DNA of 56,640 nt from Synechococcus sp. CS-1329. GTDB lineage: Bacteria; Cyanobacteriota; Cyanobacteriia; PCC-6307; Cyanobiaceae. The DNA is taken from the NCBI RefSeq assembly GCF_025128055.1, contig NZ_JAHLYS010000029.1, positions 1-56,640 on the forward strand. The letters run 5' to 3'. Positions 658-10,644 of this stretch are shown one piece after another (position 1 is the first letter of the stretch; each line of letters begins with the position of its first letter). The translations under genes were made by a program, and so were the position numbers. The notes under the pieces are model-generated. The model saw only the letters and a list, made by a program, of their open reading frames with translations, made no database searches and had not been told where the DNA came from.

Positions 658-2469
658 ATGGCCGATCAGGAGCAACTGGACGACTTCCTCGAGGCCCTTG
701 AAGAGCTCGGCAGCCCCACCAAGAACCCGACGTTGCAGGAGGCGCTGGGCTGGGATGAGGCCCTCTACGAGGAGGTGAAGGCCGAGCTGGTGGGCAAGCG
801 GATTGTGGTGCGAGGAAGGGGCCGCAGCGATGCGGTGGCCCTGGTGGGCGCCGAACCGGTGGCGCAGCAACCCGCCCCATCCAGCAAAGGCAGCAAGGCC
901 AGGGCCTCCGCCAACGGCACCCCCAAAGACAAATCCCTCGAGTCCTGGATCTGGGATGCCGCCTGCTCGATCCGCGGCGCCAAGGATGCGCCGAAATACA
1001 AGGACTACATCCTGCCGCTGATCTTCACCAAGCGGCTCTGCGATGTGTTCGACGACGAGCTGAACCGCATCGCCGCCGAGGTGGGTTCGCGCCAGAAGGC
1101 GTTCCAGCTGGTGGCCGCCGATCACAAGCTGGTGCGCTTCTACCTGCCGTTGGTGCCAGGCGACTCCGAGCAGCCGGTGTGGAGCGTGATCCGCAAGCTC
1201 TCGGACAAGATCGGCGAAGATGTCACCACACAGATGCGGGCCATCGCCCGGGAGAACCCGCTGCTGCAGGGCATCATCGACCGGGTGGACTTCAACGCCA
1301 CCACCCACGGCCAGCGCGACCTCGACGACGACCGCCTCTCCAACCTGATCGAGGCGATCAGCACCAAGCGCCTGGGGCTGAGCGATGTGGAGGCCGACAT
1401 CATCGGCAAGAGCTACGAGTACCTGATCCGCAAATTCGCCGAGGGCAGCGGCCAGAGCGCTGGTGAGTTCTATACCCCGCCCGAGGTGGCCAGCATCATG
1501 AGCAAGGTGCTGCAGCCGGGGCCCGGCATGGAGATTTACGACCCCTGCTGCGGTTCCGGCGGTCTGCTGGTGAAATGCGAGATCGCTATGGAAGAGAGCG
1601 TGCGGGGCTCGAACGGCGCCGCCATTGCACCGCTGAAGCTGTTCGGCCAGGAGTATGTGCCCGAAACCTGGGCGATGGCCAACATGAACATGATCATCCA
1701 CGACCTGGAGGGCCAGATCGAGATCGGCGACACGTTCAAGAAACCCTGGTTCAAAAACTCAGCGGGTAAACTGCGTACGTTCGATCGCGTCGTGGCCAAT
1801 CCGATGTGGAATCAGGACTGGTTCACGGAGACCGACTACGACAGCGACGAATTCGACCGCTTTCCACCGGGCGCCGGTTTCCCCGGCAAGTCGTCGGCGG
1901 ACTGGGGCTGGGTGCAGCACATGCACGCCAGTCTCAAGGCCAACGGCCGCGCCGCCGTGGTGCTCGACACCGGCGCCGCCTCCCGCGGCTCGGGCAATGC
2001 CGGCACCAACAAGGAAAAGACCGTGCGCCAGTGGTTCGTGGAGCACGACCTGATCGAGAGCGTGCTCTACCTGCCAGAAAACCTCTTCTACAACACCACC
2101 GCCCCCGGTATCGTGTTGTTCCTGAACAAGGCCAAGACAGCGGAGCGCCAGGGCCAGGTCTTGCTTGTGAACGCCAGCCAGGTGTTCGAGAAGGGTGATC
2201 CCAAGAACTTCATCCCAGAGGCAGGGATCCGACTCATTGCGGACACTCTGATCGGTTGGAAGGAAGTGGAGAAGCTCAGCCGCATTGTGGTGCACCCCGA
2301 GCTGAAGAAGAACGACTACAACATCTCCCCCAGCCGTTACATCCATACCAGCGATACCGAAACCTATCGACCTATTGTGGAGATCGTTCAGGAACTGAAC
2401 GCGATTGAAGCCGAGGCGCGTGAAAGAGACAAGGCTTTGAAGGAGATCTTGGAGAAGATCGATATATGA
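658..2469 (+). CDS. hsdM: Type I restriction-modification DNA methyltransferase subunit (HsdM)
   Basis: This is the adenine-N6 methyltransferase subunit of a type I restriction-modification complex, 603 residues and apparently intact. Residues 1-65 form a short helical, probably winged-helix extension ending in RGRGRSDAVAL. An Ala/Ser/Lys-rich linker follows, then the HsdM helical domain from about 90. The methylase core has GEFYTPPEV (269-277), the SAM-binding motif DPCCGSGG (295-302) and the catalytic motif IV as NPMW (381-384) rather than the usual NPPF/Y. Its stop overlaps the hsdS ATG by four bases (ATGA), so the two are translationally coupled. GC content is high, like the host genes. 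Without a working HsdS it should not methylate in the usual way. Confidence 0.95.
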   Translation: MADQEQLDDFLEALEELGSPTKNPTLQEALGWDEALYEEVKAELVGKRIVVRGRGRSDAVALVGAEPVAQQPAPSSKGSKARASANGTPKDKSLESWIWDAACSIRGAKDAPKYKDYILPLIFTKRLCDVFDDELNRIAAEVGSRQKAFQLVAADHKLVRFYLPLVPGDSEQPVWSVIRKLSDKIGEDVTTQMRAIARENPLLQGIIDRVDFNATTHGQRDLDDDRLSNLIEAISTKRLGLSDVEADIIGKSYEYLIRKFAEGSGQSAGEFYTPPEVASIMSKVLQPGPGMEIYDPCCGSGGLLVKCEIAMEESVRGSNGAAIAPLKLFGQEYVPETWAMANMNMIIHDLEGQIEIGDTFKKPWFKNSAGKLRTFDRVVANPMWNQDWFTETDYDSDEFDRFPPGAGFPGKSSADWGWVQHMHASLKANGRAAVVLDTGAASRGSGNAGTNKEKTVRQWFVEHDLIESVLYLPENLFYNTTAPGIVLFLNKAKTAERQGQVLLVNASQVFEKGDPKNFIPEAGIRLIADTLIGWKEVEKLSRIVVHPELKKNDYNISPSRYIHTSDTETYRPIVEIVQELNAIEAEARERDKALKEILEKIDI

Positions 2470-3721
2470 ACGCCTGGAGTGAAACAACATTTGGTGAAGT
2501 TTCCACCGGCTTCCTTAGCGGAGGCACACCTGACACTTCACAGGCAGATTTCTGGTCGGGAGATATTCCCTGGATCACGAGCAAATGGCTTGGCAGCAAG
2601 CTAGAACTCACTTCGGGCGAGAAATTTATCTCCAATGATGCTGTCGAAAAATCATCAACTAAGATCGTCCCCAAGGACAGCATCATCTTCGCAACGAGGG
2701 TTGGCGTAGGCAAAGTTGGCATCAACCGCATTGATCTCGCTATCAACCAGGACCTCGCAGGTGTCCTGATTGACAACGAAGTGTATGATACAAGTTTATC
2801 GCTTATCAATTGGGTATAAGCACGATTCAGCAGTACGTCGCGATGAATAAGCGTGGTGCGACCATCAAAGGCATCACCCGAGATTGTCTGGAACAGATTC
2901 GACTCAACATCCCCCCACTCGCCGAGCAGAAGAAGATCGCGCACATCCTCTCGACGGTGCAGCGGGCGATCCAAGCGCAGGAGCGGATCATTCAGACCAC
3001 CACCGAGCTGAAAAAGGCCCTCATGCACAAGCTCTTCAATGAAGGGCTGCGTGGGGAGCCTCAAAAACAGACTGAAATCGGCCCCGTGCCCGAGAGTTGG
3101 GAGGTTCGCAAACTCGGTGACATCGCGACTACGATCTCCAAAGGATCATCTCCGAAGTGGCAGGGGTTTCATTACACTGATAAAGGCATCCTCTTCGTCC
3201 GAAGCCAAAACGTGGGAAGCGGAAGGATGCTCTTGGACGACCGTACCTATCTACCCCCATCCTTCAACGAGAAGGAAAAGCGCTCGATCCTCCAATCCGG
3301 TGACATCCTGATCAATCTTGTGGGAGCATCAATCGGACGGGTTGCACTGGGGACCGACGATATTGAGGGAGGCAACTGTAACCAAGCAGTCGGGTTTGTC
3401 CGGCTTGAGAGGTCAGAGGCTATAAAACAATTGATCGTTTATTTCCTTCTCTCGCCATGGGGTCAGGAGCAAATGCGGAGGCAGAAGAAGGACATCGCGC
3501 GAGCAAACCTTAGCCTACTCGATGTGCGTGGATTTGAAATTCCGATTCCCCCTGTAGAGGACGAGATAGAAGAAATAGCTAGAGCTCTTGTGACCCTCGA
3601 TAAAAAGAATGCGACGCACGAGCGAAAGCGCGATCAACTCCAAAACCTCTTCCGCACCCTCCTCCACGAACTCATGACCGCGAAGATCCGTGTTCACGAC
3701 CTGCCTTTGACAGTAGGCTAA
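2466..3721 (+). pseudogene. hsdS: Type I restriction-modification specificity subunit (HsdS), frameshifted
   Basis: HsdS supplies sequence recognition through two target recognition domains (TRDs) separated by conserved helices. Frame 3 from the ATG at 2466 gives TRD1 (WSETTFGEVSTGFLSGGTP) up to VYDTS and then stops at 2817-2819. Frame 2 continues the same domain (KFIAYQLGISTIQQYVAMNK), then the central conserved region (EIGPVPESWEVRKLGDIA) and TRD2, to 3721. One base has been gained or lost at about 2789-2798. No homopolymer or slippery run is there, so phase variation looks unlikely. A GTG or TTG restart near 2810 could make a 'half' HsdS with one TRD; such truncated subunits can work as dimers in some systems. 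The sequence is AT-richer than hsdM. Confidence 0.9.
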
Positions 3722-3730
3722 CTTTTCTCA

Positions 3731-4735
3731 ATGCAATCATGCCACCAGATGACCTTAGAATCATTACATAAAATGGCTACAGCAGATCAAATTAAATCTC
3801 TAATACGCTCGCATCTCAGCGATGATGATGAGCGCTTTTACACTCTTGCCCTGCAGGTTGCGGCTCATGAAGCTCAACAAGGGCACACTGGACTCGCGCA
3901 TGATATCCGCGAGATCGTAGACAAGAGTCGGAAGACTCGGGGAACCAACACGCTGTTGAGATTTCCACGAGATTTGGCGGGAATGGTACTGTCAGAGACT
4001 TCCGATATTCCGCTCTCTGCGTTGGTGATTCCAGACGTTATTCGTGATCGAATTCAGAGAATTATTCATGAGCATCGGCAACGAGAGAAATTAAAGAAGC
4101 ACGGACTCTCAAATCGCAGAAAGATTCTCCTCTCCGGCCCTCCCGGAACCGGGAAGACTCTCACTGCCCGCGTTCTTGCACACGAGTTGCGCCTCCCGCT
4201 GCACACGATCCAGGTTGATAAGCTCGTCACCAAGTTTATGGGCGAAACCAGTGCAAAACTTCGCCAAATATTTGATCTTATCAGAGAACAGCGGGGCGTT
4301 TACCTTTTCGATGAGTTTGACGCCATCGGTGGCGAACGATCTCTGGAAAATGACGTCGGAGAGATGCGACGGGTTCTCAACGCGCTATTACAGTTCATCG
4401 AGCAGGACGTTTCTGAAAGTCTCATTATTGGAGCGACGAACAATCCATTGCTTTTGGATCGCGCACTGTTCCGGCGATTTGACGATGTGCTGCACTATGA
4501 GTTGCCGGATGAAGTATCGCGTCGGCATTTGATCGACAATGTTCTTGGCTGCTTCAAGGGTCGTCTTGGATGGAAGTCGATTATTGAGCAAAGCTCCGAT
4601 CTAAGTCATTCTGAGATCGATCACGCATGTAGAGACGCGATCAAGGAAGCAATACTAGAAGACAAGAATAAAGTTGATAGCAAGGCATTGATCAGGACAC
4701 TTGTCGAAAGACATCAAACGCACAATCGCAAGTGA
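3731..4735 (+). CDS. ietA: AAA+ ATPase, IetA-like partner of a subtilase
   Basis: A 334-residue AAA+ ATPase. An N-terminal helical segment (1-90) precedes the ATPase core: Walker A GPPGTGKT (136-143), Walker B YLFDEFDAIGGER (191-203), sensor 1 GATNN (234-238) and the arginine-finger pair in FRRFDD (248-249). It ends with a small helical lid. It is followed after three bases by a large subtilisin-like protease. That order and pairing match the ietA-ietS module, known from a Ti plasmid as a toxin-antitoxin-like stability locus and later listed among phage-defence systems. In that precedent the ATPase restrains the protease. The start is uncertain: ATGs at 3731, 3749 and 3773 all lack a good ribosome-binding site. 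Lower GC than hsdM suggests transfer. Confidence 0.8.
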   Translation: MQSCHQMTLESLHKMATADQIKSLIRSHLSDDDERFYTLALQVAAHEAQQGHTGLAHDIREIVDKSRKTRGTNTLLRFPRDLAGMVLSETSDIPLSALVIPDVIRDRIQRIIHEHRQREKLKKHGLSNRRKILLSGPPGTGKTLTARVLAHELRLPLHTIQVDKLVTKFMGETSAKLRQIFDLIREQRGVYLFDEFDAIGGERSLENDVGEMRRVLNALLQFIEQDVSESLIIGATNNPLLLDRALFRRFDDVLHYELPDEVSRRHLIDNVLGCFKGRLGWKSIIEQSSDLSHSEIDHACRDAIKEAILEDKNKVDSKALIRTLVERHQTHNRK

Positions 4736-4738
4736 TCC

Positions 4739-7228
4739 ATGGTTGGCAAAAGATTTTCTCATCTATTCCTTCCTGGTCCATCTCATAGCCGAGATGACTA
4801 CAGTAGCCCTAGACGAGGAGGTGACGGCCCACGGCTTCGTGCACAGGATAGGCCAACGCATGCGGCAGTTGTGAGACGAGCACTGGAAACAGCTTGGCAG
4901 CAAGCTGAAGAACGGCGTGCAGTAGCGCATTCCTCAAGACAAGGAGTCTATCTTGAGTTTTCAAGCGAGCCAGGATTTAATCTGACTCTTAAGAGTCTGG
5001 AGTCACGTCAGGCAGGCATAAAGCTCCTAAATGTACGGACTGAGGGACAAGACGGAGAGGAGATCACTAGGGCAACGGTTTTTATTCCGCAGGAGAAGAG
5101 TGCTCACTTTTTGCAGAAGGCGATCGCCTATGCAACGGAAGACAATCCGCCAAGGCAGGACGGAACGACCACAGCGAAAAATGCGCCGCTGATCGAGAGT
5201 ATTGGGGATGTAAGGGCCGCCATCCTCGAGTCATCTTTTTGGCAGGATGCTCCTGATCGCCTTCCCAGGGATGCCCCCGAATGGGTGGAAGCCTGGTTAA
5301 GCAGTGAAGATCTCAACGTCATTGAGGCATTTGAACAATTATGCGGTGATCAAGGAATCGAACTTGGTGAGGGTTCTCTTTCCTTTCCAGAGCGTACGGT
5401 GCGGCTTATTCTGGCGAATCGGCAGCAATTGGAATCTCTAATAGAGTATTCAGACTCAATCGCTGAATTTCGCCATGCACGAGAGGTTGCCACCTTCTTT
5501 GTTGAACAAGACAACGCGGATCAATCTGAATGGCTGCATGAACTTTTGGAGCGAACGTCTGTTCAACTCCAGAATGACGTCTGCGTTCTGGTGCTCGACC
5601 ACGGAGTAAATAATGGTCACAGACTCTTGCAGCCGGTTTTGCCGGATGAAGACTGCCATGCTGCAGACCTAGCTTGGGGGACGCAGGATGACCACGGTCA
5701 TGGGACATTGATGGCAGGAACTGCAGCATACGGGGATATCCTTGATTGCCTCGAAAGTGGGTCTCCTATAATTGTCAGGCACTGCTTGGAATCAGCAAAG
5801 ATTCTTCCTCCACCCCCAGAGGAAAACCCACGCAGACTTTGGGGCCACTTCACTGCCCAAGGAATCAGTAGAGCAGAAATTCAAGCACCTCAACGTAAGC
5901 GCGTGATTTGCATGGCAGTTACTAGTTGCGATGAAATCAATCGCGGCCGCCCCTCTTCATGGTCTGGTGAAATTGATGAGTTGGCCTCTGGGTATTCTGA
6001 TGACCGACGACGACTGATCATTATCAGTGCCGGAAACGTTAAAGATCCGGAAGATTGGATGCGTTTTCCAGATTCCAACATTACTTGTGAAGTTCAGGAT
6101 CCAGCACAGGCTTGGAATGCTTTAACAGTGGGGGCCTTTACCGAGAAAACTCATATTTCCGATCCATCTCTTCATTCTTATAGAGCAATTGCGGAAGCAG
6201 GAGACCTCTCGCCATTTTCATGTACATCTTCGACTTGGCCGAACAGAAAATGGCCGATCAAGCCAGACGTTTGTTTTGAGGGTGGAAATGTTGCTGCAGG
6301 GCCAAATGATACGGTTTTTGATACTGATGACTTGAAGCTCCTTTCGACCTACCGCGATCCCGGAGTCGCACAGTTTTCGTCTTTCGACGCTACGAGTGCC
6401 GCTTCTGCTCAGGCTGCATGGATGGCTGCGCGTCTTCAGGCTGAGTATCCCGCCGCTTGGCCGGAAACGATTCGGGGTTTGATAGTTCATTCGGCACAGT
6501 GGACTGGCACTCAAAAGCGAAAGTATCTTCGGGGACCTTTAAAAAGTGACTACTACAAACTGGCCAAGATCTGCGGCTATGGAGTTCCGAGCCTTGAACG
6601 CGCTATCTCATGCGCCTCAAACTCGTTATCATTAATCTCAGAAGCTAATCTTCAGCCTTTTGACAGACATGAAACTCAGAGTCGCTGCATATCAAAGGAC
6701 ATGCATATTTACCGGTTGCCGTGGCCAGTTGATGTCCTTCAGGAACTCCGTGAGTCGCCGGTTCAAATGCGGGTAACACTCTCATATTTTGTAGAACCTA
6801 GCCCTGGCGAAATTGGATGGAAAGATCGGTATCGTTATGCTTCACACGCCCTTAGATTCGAGCTGAACGGCCCAGGAGAGGACGAAGAGGAATTTGTCCA
6901 AAGGATCAACCGGAGAGCACGTGAGGATGACGAGCATCCAGGAACAGAGGGCGCTGCGGATCATTGGAGGCTAGGCGAAATCAGAAACGTAGGCTCCATT
7001 CATTCTGACCTCTGGTCTGGCACTGCTGTTCAGCTGGCTGGCTCAAATTTGATAGCAGTTCATCCGGCAGTGGGTTGGTGGCGAGAGCGTGCCCATCTTG
7101 GCAGATTCCAACGGCAAACTCGTTACTCATTGATAGTGTCGTTTACTCTCCCTGGGCAGGAAATTGATATTTACACACCCGTAGCGGTGCAACTTGGAAT
7201 TCCTATGCCGATAGGGATAACGATTTGA
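4739..7228 (+). CDS. ietS: Subtilisin-like serine protease (S8 family), IetS-like
   Basis: An 829-residue protein with no signal peptide, so probably cytoplasmic. The S8 catalytic set is complete: Asp287 in VLVLDHG, His321 in HGHGTLMAGT, oxyanion Asn433 in IIISAGN and Ser553 in DATSAASAQAAW. The Ser motif is ATS rather than GTS. About 280 residues precede the protease domain and about 230 follow it; neither part resembles a domain I can name. The gene begins three bases after ietA stops, so the two are one unit. Family knowledge: in ietAS the protease is the toxic or effector part and the ATPase controls it. Substrate is unknown. The ORF is undamaged although hsdS and hsdR on either side are broken, and its base composition is AT-richer than theirs. 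Confidence 0.82.
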   Translation: MVGKRFSHLFLPGPSHSRDDYSSPRRGGDGPRLRAQDRPTHAAVVRRALETAWQQAEERRAVAHSSRQGVYLEFSSEPGFNLTLKSLESRQAGIKLLNVRTEGQDGEEITRATVFIPQEKSAHFLQKAIAYATEDNPPRQDGTTTAKNAPLIESIGDVRAAILESSFWQDAPDRLPRDAPEWVEAWLSSEDLNVIEAFEQLCGDQGIELGEGSLSFPERTVRLILANRQQLESLIEYSDSIAEFRHAREVATFFVEQDNADQSEWLHELLERTSVQLQNDVCVLVLDHGVNNGHRLLQPVLPDEDCHAADLAWGTQDDHGHGTLMAGTAAYGDILDCLESGSPIIVRHCLESAKILPPPPEENPRRLWGHFTAQGISRAEIQAPQRKRVICMAVTSCDEINRGRPSSWSGEIDELASGYSDDRRRLIIISAGNVKDPEDWMRFPDSNITCEVQDPAQAWNALTVGAFTEKTHISDPSLHSYRAIAEAGDLSPFSCTSSTWPNRKWPIKPDVCFEGGNVAAGPNDTVFDTDDLKLLSTYRDPGVAQFSSFDATSAASAQAAWMAARLQAEYPAAWPETIRGLIVHSAQWTGTQKRKYLRGPLKSDYYKLAKICGYGVPSLERAISCASNSLSLISEANLQPFDRHETQSRCISKDMHIYRLPWPVDVLQELRESPVQMRVTLSYFVEPSPGEIGWKDRYRYASHALRFELNGPGEDEEEFVQRINRRAREDDEHPGTEGAADHWRLGEIRNVGSIHSDLWSGTAVQLAGSNLIAVHPAVGWWRERAHLGRFQRQTRYSLIVSFTLPGQEIDIYTPVAVQLGIPMPIGITI

Positions 7229-7232
7229 TGAC

Positions 7233-7352
7233 ATGCCCCCGCCCAGAGAATACAAGACCGTCCACGTGCGAATGCTCGAATCTACTGAGGGCTTCGGCTT
7301 CCTTTCGCGGCCGCGGGATGTCTCGCAAGTGAGGAAGGAATCCACGTCATGA
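7233..7352 (+). pseudogene. Diverged duplicate of the hsdR 5' end
   Basis: A 39-codon frame from the ATG at 7233 begins MPPPREYKTVHVRMLESTEG and stops in an ATGA overlap with hsdR. It aligns with the start of the adjacent hsdR protein (MSTPGEHKTVQSRILAYAEA). At the DNA level 7246-7264 matches 7362-7380 at 17 of 19 bases, 116 bases apart. It looks like the N-terminus of a second hsdR allele, left between ietS and the intact hsdR start. It may still act as a leader peptide coupling translation into hsdR. I infer an insertion or recombination scar. Confidence 0.6.
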
Positions 7353-10312
7353 GCACCCCCGGAGAACACAAAACCGTCCAATCCCGTATCCTTGCTTACG
7401 CCGAGGCCATCGGTTGGACGGTTATGTCCCGCGAGGAAGCCGAGAAGCGGCGCGGGTTTGATCCAGAGATGCCACCTGCCGAGCGCGCAAAGAACCGCTC
7501 GCTCTTCTTCGACGATCTGCTCGACGCCAAGGTGCGAGAGTTTAACCCGCGCTATGCCGAGGCAGAAGGCGCCCTGCTCTGGCAGTTCCGCCACCTTCAC
7601 ACCAATATTTATGGCAACCGGGAATTTGTCGAGCACCTGCGTAACCGGGGCAAGTTCTTCGGCCACGAGGAGAAACGCGAGCACGATCTGATCCTGATCG
7701 ATTACGACGACCGCGACAGGCTGCCGGAGGCACGCAAGAACATCTATGAAGTTACCGAAGAGTGGGTCTTTCACAACGGCCACTACGGTACGCGGGAGGA
7801 TGTGGTTTTTCTGATCAACGGCATCCCCGTGCTGGTGATCGAATGCAAGAACGCCGATAAGCAGGAAGCCATCGATCTGGGCATCGATCAGATCCGCCGC
7901 TACCACCGCGAAACCCCCGAGCTGTTCGTGAGCCAGCAGCTGTTCACCGCCACCGATGCCATCGGCTTTTCCTATGGCGTGAGCTGAAACACGGTGCGGC
8001 GCAACCTCTTCAACTGGAAGCATGATCAGGTGGGCCAGCTGGAGGCCAAGATCAAGAGCTTCTGCGCCATCCCGCAGCTCCTCGATTTCCTGCAGCACTA
8101 CATCGTCTTTGCCGAGAAAGACGAAGAGCTCAACAAATACATCCTGCGCCAGCACCAAACTGCAGCGGTCGATGCCTCCGTGGGCCGCGCCCTGGATCCC
8201 CACCGCCGGAGGGGCCTGATCTGGCACACCCAAGGCAGCGGCAAAACCTTCACCATGATCAAGGCCGCCGAGCGGCTCTTCCGAGCCCCCGAAGCCGACA
8301 AGCCCACCGTGCTGCTGATGATCGACCGCAATGAGCTGGAAGATCAGATGCTCAAGAACCTAACCGCCCTCGGCCTGGGCAACCTGGAGCACGCCAGCAG
8401 CATCGCCCGCCTCAACCAACTGCTGAAGGACGACTACCGGGGCATCATCGTCACGATGATCCACAAATTCCGCGACATGCCGGTGGATCTCAACACCCGC
8501 TCCAACATCTATGTGTTGATCGACGAGGCCCACCGCACCACCGGTGGCGACCTTGGCACCTTCCTGATGGCAGGCCTGCCGAATGCCACCTACATCGGCT
8601 TCACCGGCACCCCCGTCGACAGAACCGCCTACGGCAAGGGCACCTTCAAAACCTTCGGCTGTGAAGACGACAAGGGTTACCTGCACAAGTACTCCATCGC
8701 CGACAGCATCGAAGACGGCACCACCCTGCCCCTCTATTACCAGCTCGCCCCCAACGAGATGCTCGTGCCCCACGAGACCCTCGACGCGGAGTTTCTCTCC
8801 CTCGCCGAAGCCGAGGGCGTGGCCGACATCGAGGAACTGAACAAGATCCTTGAGCGGGCGGTGAACCTCAAGAACTTTCTCAAGGGCAAAGCCCGCATCC
8901 AGCAGGTGGCTCGCTTCGTGGCCAACCACTACCTGCAGAACGTGGAGCCGCTCGGCTACAAGGCCTTCCTGGTGGGCGTCGACAGAGAAGCCTGCGCTCT
9001 CTACAAGCATGCCCTCGATGCCGTATTCACCGAAATGGGCCTGCCGCCCCAGCTTTCGGAGGTCGTCTACACCGGCAACAACAACGACTCGGCCCTGCTC
9101 AAGGAGTTCCACCTCAACCCCAAGAAGGAACGCCAGATCCGCAAGAGCTTCGGCAAGCTCGACCAACACCCCAAGATCCTGATCGTCACTGAAAAACTGC
9201 TCACCGGCTTCGATGCGCCCATTCTCTATGCCATGTATCTCGACAAGCCGATGCGCGATCACACCCTGCTGCAGGCCATCGCCCGGGTGAATCGCCCCTA
9301 CGAGAACGAGGCCCAGGAGAAGGTGAAACCCCACGGTTTCGTGCTCGATTTCGTGGGCATCTTCGACAAGCTCGAAAAGGCCCTCGCCTTCGACAGCGAC
9401 GAGATCAACGCCATCGTCAAAGACCTCAAGCTCCTCAAGGTGCTCTTCCAGAACAAGATGGAGGCCCAGGCGCCCGCCTACCTCGGTCTGATCGAGCGCA
9501 ACTTCAACGACAAAGACATCGACACTCTGATCGAGCACTTCCGCGACCCCGAGCGACGCAAGCAATTCTTCAAGGAATACAAGGAAATCGAGATGCTCTA
9601 CGAGATCATCTCGCCGGATGCTTTCCTGCGGCCCCTCCTGGATGATTTCGCCACCCTCTCCGGCATCTATGCCATCGTTCGCAAGGCGTACAGCACCACT
9701 GTGCCGGTGGATCGTGAGTTTCAGCGTAAAACCAATGCCCTGGTGCAGCAGAGCGTGAGCGCGAGCCAGCTCCAGGCCCGAGGCATTCTCGAAGCTGTAT
9801 TGATCAACAGCGAAACGATTGAATTGATCAAGGCACGGCAGGGTGGAGACGGCAGCAAAGTGATCAACCTGGTCAAAAGCATCGAGAAGTTCGCCGAAGA
9901 CCACAGCGACGACCCCTTCCTGATCGCCATGGCTGAGCGAGCCCGGCTGGTGCAGGAGAGCTTTGAACAGCGGCAGACCTCCACATCTGAGGCATTGGCG
10001 GAACTCTTTGCCGCGATTCGACAGAACGAAATCCGCAAGCAGGAGCAAGCCGAGAAGGGCTTCGATGGGCTCACGTTCTTCGTGTACCGCTCCCTGCTCA
10101 ATGCGAAGGTCAACAATCCAGAGGCTGTGAGCACCAGGATCAAGGCCGCCTTCGTGGCCTACCCGAACTGGAAGCGAAGCGATAACGCCCTGCGAGAGCT
10201 GCGCAACCAGGTCACCTTTGCCATCTATGCCGAATGTGATGAGCTGGAGCAGGTCACGCCGATCGTCGATGAGCTGTTCACCCTGCTGCAGAAGGCGGAC
10301 CGCATCGGATGA
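7349..10312 (+). pseudogene. hsdR: Type I restriction endonuclease subunit (HsdR), interrupted by an in-frame TGA
   Basis: This is the translocase/nuclease subunit of the type I system. Codons 1-212 (7349-7984) carry the PD-(D/E)xK nuclease core: Asp151 in TREDVVF and the ECK at 165-167. A TGA at 7985-7987 follows, and the same frame continues as NTVRRNLFNWKHD to 10312. The family sequence at this point is typically SYGV-x-WNTVRRNLF, so the TGA most likely replaces a TGG Trp codon. The downstream part has Walker A TQGSGKT, the DEAH box LIDEAHRTT and GFTGTPVDR, plus the C-terminal helical domain. No frameshift is needed to join the halves. A GTG restart at 7994 would give a translocase without nuclease. 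GC is high, like hsdM. Confidence 0.9.
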
Positions 10313-10644
10313 CCAGCAACGCCAAAGCGGCCTTCAAGACCCGCGTGCGCGACTGGGCGCAGAAGCTGGATGTGCAGGTGGTATGGCTTGGCATGCGCCC
10401 GATGCGCCACAAGTGGGCCTCCTGCTCCACCAACGGCCATCTCAACTTCAGTGTCGACCTGCTCTCGCTCGACCAGGCCCTGTGGGACTACGTGATCGTC
10501 CACGAACTGCTCCACTTCAGCATTCCCAACCACGGCAGGGTCTGGAAATCCCTGATGCGGGCCCATCTGGGCGAGTGGGAGAAGGCTGAAGAGCAGCTGA
10601 TGCGCCAGGCCGGATCGCTCCAACCACTCCATCCCACCCCATGA
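10309..10644 (+). CDS. YgjP-like zinc metallopeptidase (M48/DUF45 type)
   Basis: A 111-residue protein whose core is VIVHELLHFSIPNHGRVW: an HExxH zinc site with the third ligand in the NHG motif. This is the layout of the YgjP/DUF45 family (wss/M48-like metallopeptidases). It overlaps the hsdR stop by four bases (ATGA). Genes of this family are commonly found directly behind hsdR in type I restriction loci, which argues for a functional link, though the role is not established. The N-terminal strands that usually precede the zinc site are present but short. No export signal is seen. Confidence 0.82.
   Translation: MTSNAKAAFKTRVRDWAQKLDVQVVWLGMRPMRHKWASCSTNGHLNFSVDLLSLDQALWDYVIVHELLHFSIPNHGRVWKSLMRAHLGEWEKAEEQLMRQAGSLQPLHPTP

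Follow-up and report, generated by a model that had tools for sequence, protein, structure and literature searches.

A truncated second hsdR start behind ietAS at the hsdS-hsdR junction of a cyanobacterial type I restriction-modification locus

The window analysed here, i.e., the whole stretch of 56,640 nucleotides from Synechococcus sp. CS-1329, carries a type I restriction-modification locus on its forward strand with the gene order hsdM - hsdS - ietA - ietS - spacer - hsdR - YgjP-like peptidase. The Pfam domains for hsdM, hsdS and hsdR are all present. The methyltransferase gene hsdM (658-2469; N6_Mtase, HsdM_N) is followed by the specificity gene hsdS (2466-3721), which is split into two open reading frames (2466-2819 and 2810-3721) with a Methylase_S domain in each piece. 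Behind it lie ietA (3731-4735), which encodes an AAA ATPase (Pfam AAA), and ietS (4739-7228), which encodes a subtilisin-like protease (Pfam Peptidase_S8). A gap of 4 bases (7229-7232) separates the ietS stop from the ATG of a short frame that resembles the head of hsdR. The part of this head with significant homology (7233-7299; the stub in the following) and the remainder of the spacer (7300-7348) precede the resident restriction gene hsdR (7349-10312; HSDR_N, SWI2_SNF2 and a T1R_D3-like domain). The hsdR end overlaps by 4 bases with an open reading frame for a YgjP-like metallopeptidase (10309-10644; Pfam YgjP-like). Upstream of hsdM, an open reading frame at 220-600 resembles, by eye, a C-terminal piece of a HipA-type kinase; genes of HipA-like appearance were also seen by eye ahead of the hsdR heads in the loci L073 and L074.

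The G+C content changes in steps along the locus, i.e., from about 0.62-0.68 in hsdM to 0.47-0.53 in hsdS and ietAS and to 0.57-0.62 in hsdR. The frame change in hsdS lies at 2810-2819 and a single in-frame TGA (7985-7987) interrupts hsdR, while ietA and ietS are open. Given the split hsdS and the TGA in hsdR, type I activity in this strain appears doubtful, and since the two ietAS genes are open, restriction may have been lost with the cargo kept. The frame change in hsdS and the in-frame stop in hsdR may also stem from assembly error.

We assign the cargo to IetAS because an AAA ATPase gene lies beside an S8 protease gene and both match the respective PADLOC models (IetA, E 2e-74; IetS, E 1.3e-29). 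The pair differs from the known system in being embedded in a type I locus and in its scores, which are far under the NCBIfam equivalog cut-offs for both proteins (206.2 of 510 bits for IetA, 54.6 of 900 bits for IetS). Judged from these model matches, it is a diverged branch of IetAS with a predicted anti-phage role. The true start of ietA may be found about 42 bases further in, where the relatives in L033 and L127 begin with MATAEQIK.

The frame 7233-7352 translates to MPPPREYKTVHVRMLESTEGFGFLSRPRDVSQVRKESTS followed by a stop. The preliminary description had taken it for a diverged second hsdR start, which is borne out by our comparisons. The stub is in register with the resident start, that is, the first 60 hsdR bases agree with 7233-7292 at 39/60 positions without gaps, while the second-best site on either strand of the window agrees at 31. 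The 19-mers at 7246-7264 and 7362-7380 are indeed identical at 17/19 positions and 116 bases apart, and the 56.6-kb window holds no third site at 17/19 on either strand. Equally correct is that the TGA of the frame (7350-7352) overlaps the ATG of hsdR (7349-7351).

We also searched 343,155 bases with a nucleotide profile (nhmmer) built from 12 hsdR starts of other loci, with the window and Synechococcus sp. ATX 2A4 excluded from the profile. The stub is found with 28.2 bits (E 3.7e-7) and its ATX 2A4 counterpart with E 6.8e-6. The best forward match other than an hsdR start has E 0.7, and reversed bases give 4 matches with a best E of 3.9. On the protein level, 9 HsdR N-termini were compared, and for every one of them the stub peptide outscores 2000/2000 shuffles. 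Significant homology in the profile search is limited to 7233-7299, while the last 49 bases (7300-7348) have no relative above null. A gapped alignment that extended the stub to about codon 30 of hsdR was therefore dropped. Together, these comparisons support that the cargo is directly followed by a second, truncated hsdR start, which resembles a recombination scar.

ATX 2A4 (genome G083) was obtained from an IetS scan of genome contigs (5 loci) and shares both gene order and spacer length with the window. The two spacers (7233-7348) agree at 103/116 bases. In ATX 2A4, the 7233 frame has ACG in place of ATG and stops inside, and 12/13 codon changes between both versions are non-synonymous. Spacer divergence (11.4%) is similar to that at ietS third positions (11.2%), and the spacer substitutions show no excess at third positions of the 7233 frame. 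Given the broken frame, the non-synonymous changes and a divergence like that of ietS third positions, there is no sign of coding constraint in the stub. Within 7300-7348, GAGGAAGG is located 18-11 bases ahead of the hsdR ATG and, by the position of its GAGG, is possibly a ribosome-binding site for hsdR. The last spacer bases may, at most, serve hsdR translation; no present function is needed.

To place the locus among its relatives, we screened 400 genomes of the window's family for close HsdR proteins (E at most 1e-150), for which 9 genomes qualify. All of these hsdR loci (9/9) carry embedded cargo between hsdS and hsdR, namely ietAS in two (window, ATX 2A4) and other genes in seven. The latter are a Ppl-like SMC-type ATPase gene (G554), a Cap4-type nuclease gene with an unknown gene and an LmuB-like gene (G600), a gene for a 113-residue unknown (G661), an SMC-like ATPase gene (G674; by eye, from similarity to L090), PDC-S06 and PDC-S02 genes (G698), a PDC-S06 gene with DUF4160 and DUF2442 genes (G740), and a UvrD-like helicase gene with DUF2290 (G803). 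HsdR of ATX 2A4 shares 92% identity with the window's HsdR and 76-94% with the HsdRs of the seven other family genomes (both G803 pieces counted).

The preliminary description had read the stub as the scar of an insertion into an hsdR start and, for relatives without ietAS, had expected one hsdR start and hsdS joined directly to hsdR. A single start is present in 6/7 relatives without ietAS at this locus, with G740 as the exception. An empty site is found in 0/7, each relative holding one or more other genes instead. A duplicated start adjoining hsdR, named beforehand as the case that would speak against insertion, is not seen in 7/7 of these cyanobacterial relatives. The scar interpretation thus stands in part: there is a truncated second hsdR start behind the cargo with the look of a recombination scar, but relatives with an empty site do not occur among the seven, and the stub probably does not consist of the target gene's own codons, given the homology to L036 reported below. 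In G740, the decayed second hsdR start (E 6.3e-6) lies behind the PDC-S06 gene and 1.3 kb upstream of hsdR, i.e., it is a different stub with different cargo. A strict start pattern gave 9 sites in 8 of 300 family genomes (control: 1 site). Two sites occur in the window only, and the stubs of ATX 2A4 and G740 are decayed beyond this pattern.

The origin of the stub is best approached from locus L036 on a Verrucomicrobia MAG contig. Here, ietS agrees with the window at 270 of its last 300 coding bases. A gap of equal length (4 bases) comes next, and then an hsdR start with 33/45 positions identical to the stub. The same L036 head matches the window's resident head at 36/45, i.e., slightly better, in a contig whose name gives a coverage of 0.09 and whose hsdR is cut off after about 15 codons. 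The window is thus continuous with an ietS-hsdR junction found elsewhere. As the similarity extends from ietS across the 4-base gap and on into the hsdR start, the stub is probably the head of an hsdR formerly behind ietAS. At 3474-4835 of this low-coverage MAG contig, one frame fuses NucS_C-like, RhuM and HigB-like pieces, that is, a chimera of defence-like and toxin-antitoxin-like parts.

The placement of ietAS was surveyed in 377 genomes from the phylum of G152 (the Verrucomicrobiales MAG of L035), 11 of which have a strong IetS match. Behind ietS, hsdR is next in 3 genomes and follows after one gene in 1, hsdS is next in 1, and the visible flank contains neither in 6. Specifically, ietS abuts an intact hsdR of another subfamily in G343 and G312 (1-base overlap; 2-base gap), and in G202 an hsdR frame lies 76 bases past ietS. 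G515 has the order hsdM - hsdS - ietA - ietS - DUF488 gene - hsdR, and G169 is the genome with hsdS next. The six with neither gene are G151, G152, G313, G484, G220 and G340 (for G152, an hsdR-like piece was noted by eye). L033 and 3/3 inspected plasmid loci with ietAS provide settings other than the front of hsdR. The position directly ahead of hsdR is therefore among the regular sites of ietAS, and the stub is most simply read as the head of an hsdR that stood behind ietAS earlier. In L033 (971-9267), ietAS is flanked by an SNF2-type helicase gene and a DNA methylase gene, i.e., it is embedded outside a type I operon.

We further aligned the remnant with other HsdR alleles, from which the preliminary description had hoped to learn its source. 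This names no source allele: none of the 18 hsdR starts compared without gaps is close, and the best in-register value is 43/60. Low numbers in the rows of G269 (two), L037, L035 and G396 are uninformative, since these rows are out of register (starts shorter, shifted or lost). With regard to HsdR N-termini, the stub peptide scores 65 for G661, 64 for G698, 61 for G480, 58 for L090, 54 for the window itself, 52 for G554, 49 for G319, 48 for G600 and 45 for ATX 2A4. That is, 4/7 other HsdR score higher than the window's own N-terminus and 3 lower, for what is a short, decayed stub. A DNA search of plasmids and phages with 7100-7500 gave no match, and plasmid relatives of HsdR and IetS all have <60% identity. 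IMG/VR yielded no IetS relatives, and 14 loci with HsdR relatives, one of them at 79%.

Truncated hsdR heads recur beyond the window. We found seven loci from two phyla with such a head behind a gene (window and ATX 2A4 counted once), and a longer hsdR is located downstream of the head in 4/7. These numbers are no rate, as the loci are a convenience sample, collected in searches directed at this hsdR family. Three of the six further loci have a second gene or gene pair between head and hsdR: G740 reads ATPase - head - DUF4160/DUF2442 - hsdR (985 codons), G480 reads gene end - head (E 2.2e-15) - DUF3800 gene - hsdR (972 codons), and G319 reads RhuM fragment (by eye) - head - RhuM gene - hsdR (443 codons). 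L035 has a Ppl-like gene, a head of about 60 codons (78% identical), ietA and ietS in this order. In L036, ietS is followed by the head of about 15 codons and other genes, and in G269:C107 a gene end is followed by a head and unrelated DNA. The repeat in G319 covers spacer plus hsdR head, including about 140 bases upstream of the start, with 242/290 identical bases. The G319 hsdR behind stub and RhuM gene (L108, 12694-14025) is just 443 codons long, and the locus is decaying at both cargo ends.

A pattern search in the 377 genomes from the phylum of G152 reported 22 sites in 18 genomes (reversed control: 3), of which 9 were inspected. Two weak matches, on the minus strand of G554 (score 34) and at 7200 by the hsdM start of G600 (33), were dropped given a reversed-sequence maximum of 32 in 1432 windows; neither is below E 3 in the profile search. 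A right-hand hsdR-like piece behind ietS in L035 (score 36; E 8.9), recognized by eye, was left uncounted. Likewise excluded from the stub count was L072 (G363), where an hsdR head continues into a YgjP-like gene, an arrangement that we read as an internal deletion; by eye, the gene that this head runs into looks similar to the YgjP-like metallopeptidase gene of the window.

With a probability of roughly 0.7, we take the spacer front to be a non-coding relic of an hsdR that ietAS previously stood before, and the junction to be a cargo-exchange site at which this block was joined to the resident hsdR. The hsdS-hsdR junction of this type I family would then be a place where defence cargo is exchanged. 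The block, i.e., ietAS with the head of its old hsdR and perhaps hsdS too, would have come from a donor and been joined ahead of the resident cyanobacterial hsdR, with recombination in the hsdS and hsdR ends common to both as the most likely route. The stub head would have lost its gene body and decayed thereafter. In general terms, incoming cargo with at least part of an hsdR would join near the shared hsdR start, such that the old head is left behind the old cargo. We favour ietAS with its head as the newcomer because of the G+C steps and because similar hsdRs are found with other cargo across the family. In view of the truncated heads at six further loci, cargo exchange seems to have happened repeatedly, with the stub as one of its fossils. 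Points against this reading are the ietAS copies in other settings, the low-coverage L036 contig with its cut-off hsdR and its slightly better match to the resident head, the in-register maximum of 43/60 for any start compared, and the 49 bases behind the stub that have no relative above null.

The reverse assignment, in which the stub is resident and the present hsdR the newcomer, is unlikely. Here, an ietAS-hsdR locus would have taken up a cyanobacterial hsdR behind its own first 20-30 codons. The arrangement cargo1 - head - cargo2 - hsdR in G740, G480 and G319 is indeed explained most easily by a later arrival behind an older head, but no second cargo lies between stub and hsdR in the window. 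In addition, the HsdR identities of ATX 2A4 to the window (92%) and to seven family genomes with other cargo (76-94%), as well as an hsdR G+C that differs from that of ietAS, argue for ietAS as the guest.

We consider it improbable that the resident hsdR head was duplicated in tandem and decayed later, with ietAS uninvolved. Stub and hsdR head are in tandem, 116 bases apart and with no cargo between them, the spacer-plus-head repeat of G319 provides a comparable case, and the L036 head is a little closer to the resident head than to the stub. Such a duplication leaves unexplained that the L036 homology spans ietS, the equal-length gap and the stub. A further point against it, though with mixed values, is that the stub peptide scores for G661, G698, G480 and L090 exceed that for the window's own HsdR; those for G554, G319 and G600 are below it.

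The preliminary description had suggested a coupling leader. Taken as a peptide under selection that links the translation of ietS and hsdR, it is hardly credible: the window frame does open 4 bases past ietS and its stop overlaps the hsdR ATG, but the ATX 2A4 version is broken and nearly all codon changes alter the residue. A second frame (7228-7332), which overlaps the ietS stop and is open in both window and ATX 2A4, was rejected as leader evidence since chance often keeps it open (no inner stop in 72% of simulations, start and stop also kept in 38%).

Within the preferred reading of cargo exchange at the junction, we tentatively consider a more far-reaching possibility: the hsdR head might be the usual joint for a homology-guided serial stacking of cargo, with no integrase, and rows of decayed heads might record the order of arrival. 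If true, cargo gain would not be random insertion. A site-specific attachment site in the hsdR head was rejected, as synonymous codon use is no more conserved there than gene-wide, i.e., for codons 5-20 the same codon is used in 0.59 of same-residue pairs vs 0.63 gene-wide (rank 683 of 984 windows, 10 genes). By eye, the hsdR heads are alike across phyla.

Defence genes embedded in type I operons are known already, and the hsdS-hsdR junction has been proposed as a potential recombination hotspot. In the excerpts available to us, prrC is described as embedded in the EcoprrI type I operon (PMC3874165), the rlo genes of Campylobacter as located between hsdR and hsdS (PMC5183652), and DarTG2 as lying between hsdS and hsdR in the RRDM island of EPEC, where the hotspot term is used (PMC12255303). 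All three resemble the window in having defence or other genes inside a type I operon, DarTG2 and rlo at the same hsdS-hsdR position. They differ in that leftover heads behind the cargo go unmentioned in these excerpts, while the heads reported here mark past junctions. The likeness to rlo extends to G363, where an RloB gene is found immediately ahead of the hsdR head. According to the same partial text, the EPEC island ends downstream with a metallopeptidase gene (PMC12255303), as does our locus with its YgjP-like gene (10309-10644).

Candidates for embedded defence genes are credited to a 2024 preprint by Payne et al. in the portions consulted of two citing papers (PMC12988326, PMC12255303). 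Among the cargo listed here, PADLOC reports PDC-S02 and PDC-S06 in G698, PDC-S06 in G740 and PDC-S05 in G319. As cited there, this guilt-by-embedding work is about which genes embed, whereas the stub is about how they enter and in what order. In the literature searched, which included few subscription journals and preprints and was partly available as excerpts, we found no report of leftover hsdR heads behind cargo. As physical traces of past junctions, truncated heads can be searched for in any genome and may order arrivals relative to one another. They also make homology-guided joining at the hsdR head testable.

Two further kinds of interrupted hsdR were observed. In G674, two contig ends (L141 on G674:C29 and L101 on G674:C28) interrupt hsdR near codon 33, and their sequences resemble by eye the two ends of an insertion element. 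In L062 and L073 (G396), a long in-frame insertion in hsdR shows, by eye, repeated GTCCGCC-type motifs and a transposase-like segment, with an open frame of 1370 residues.
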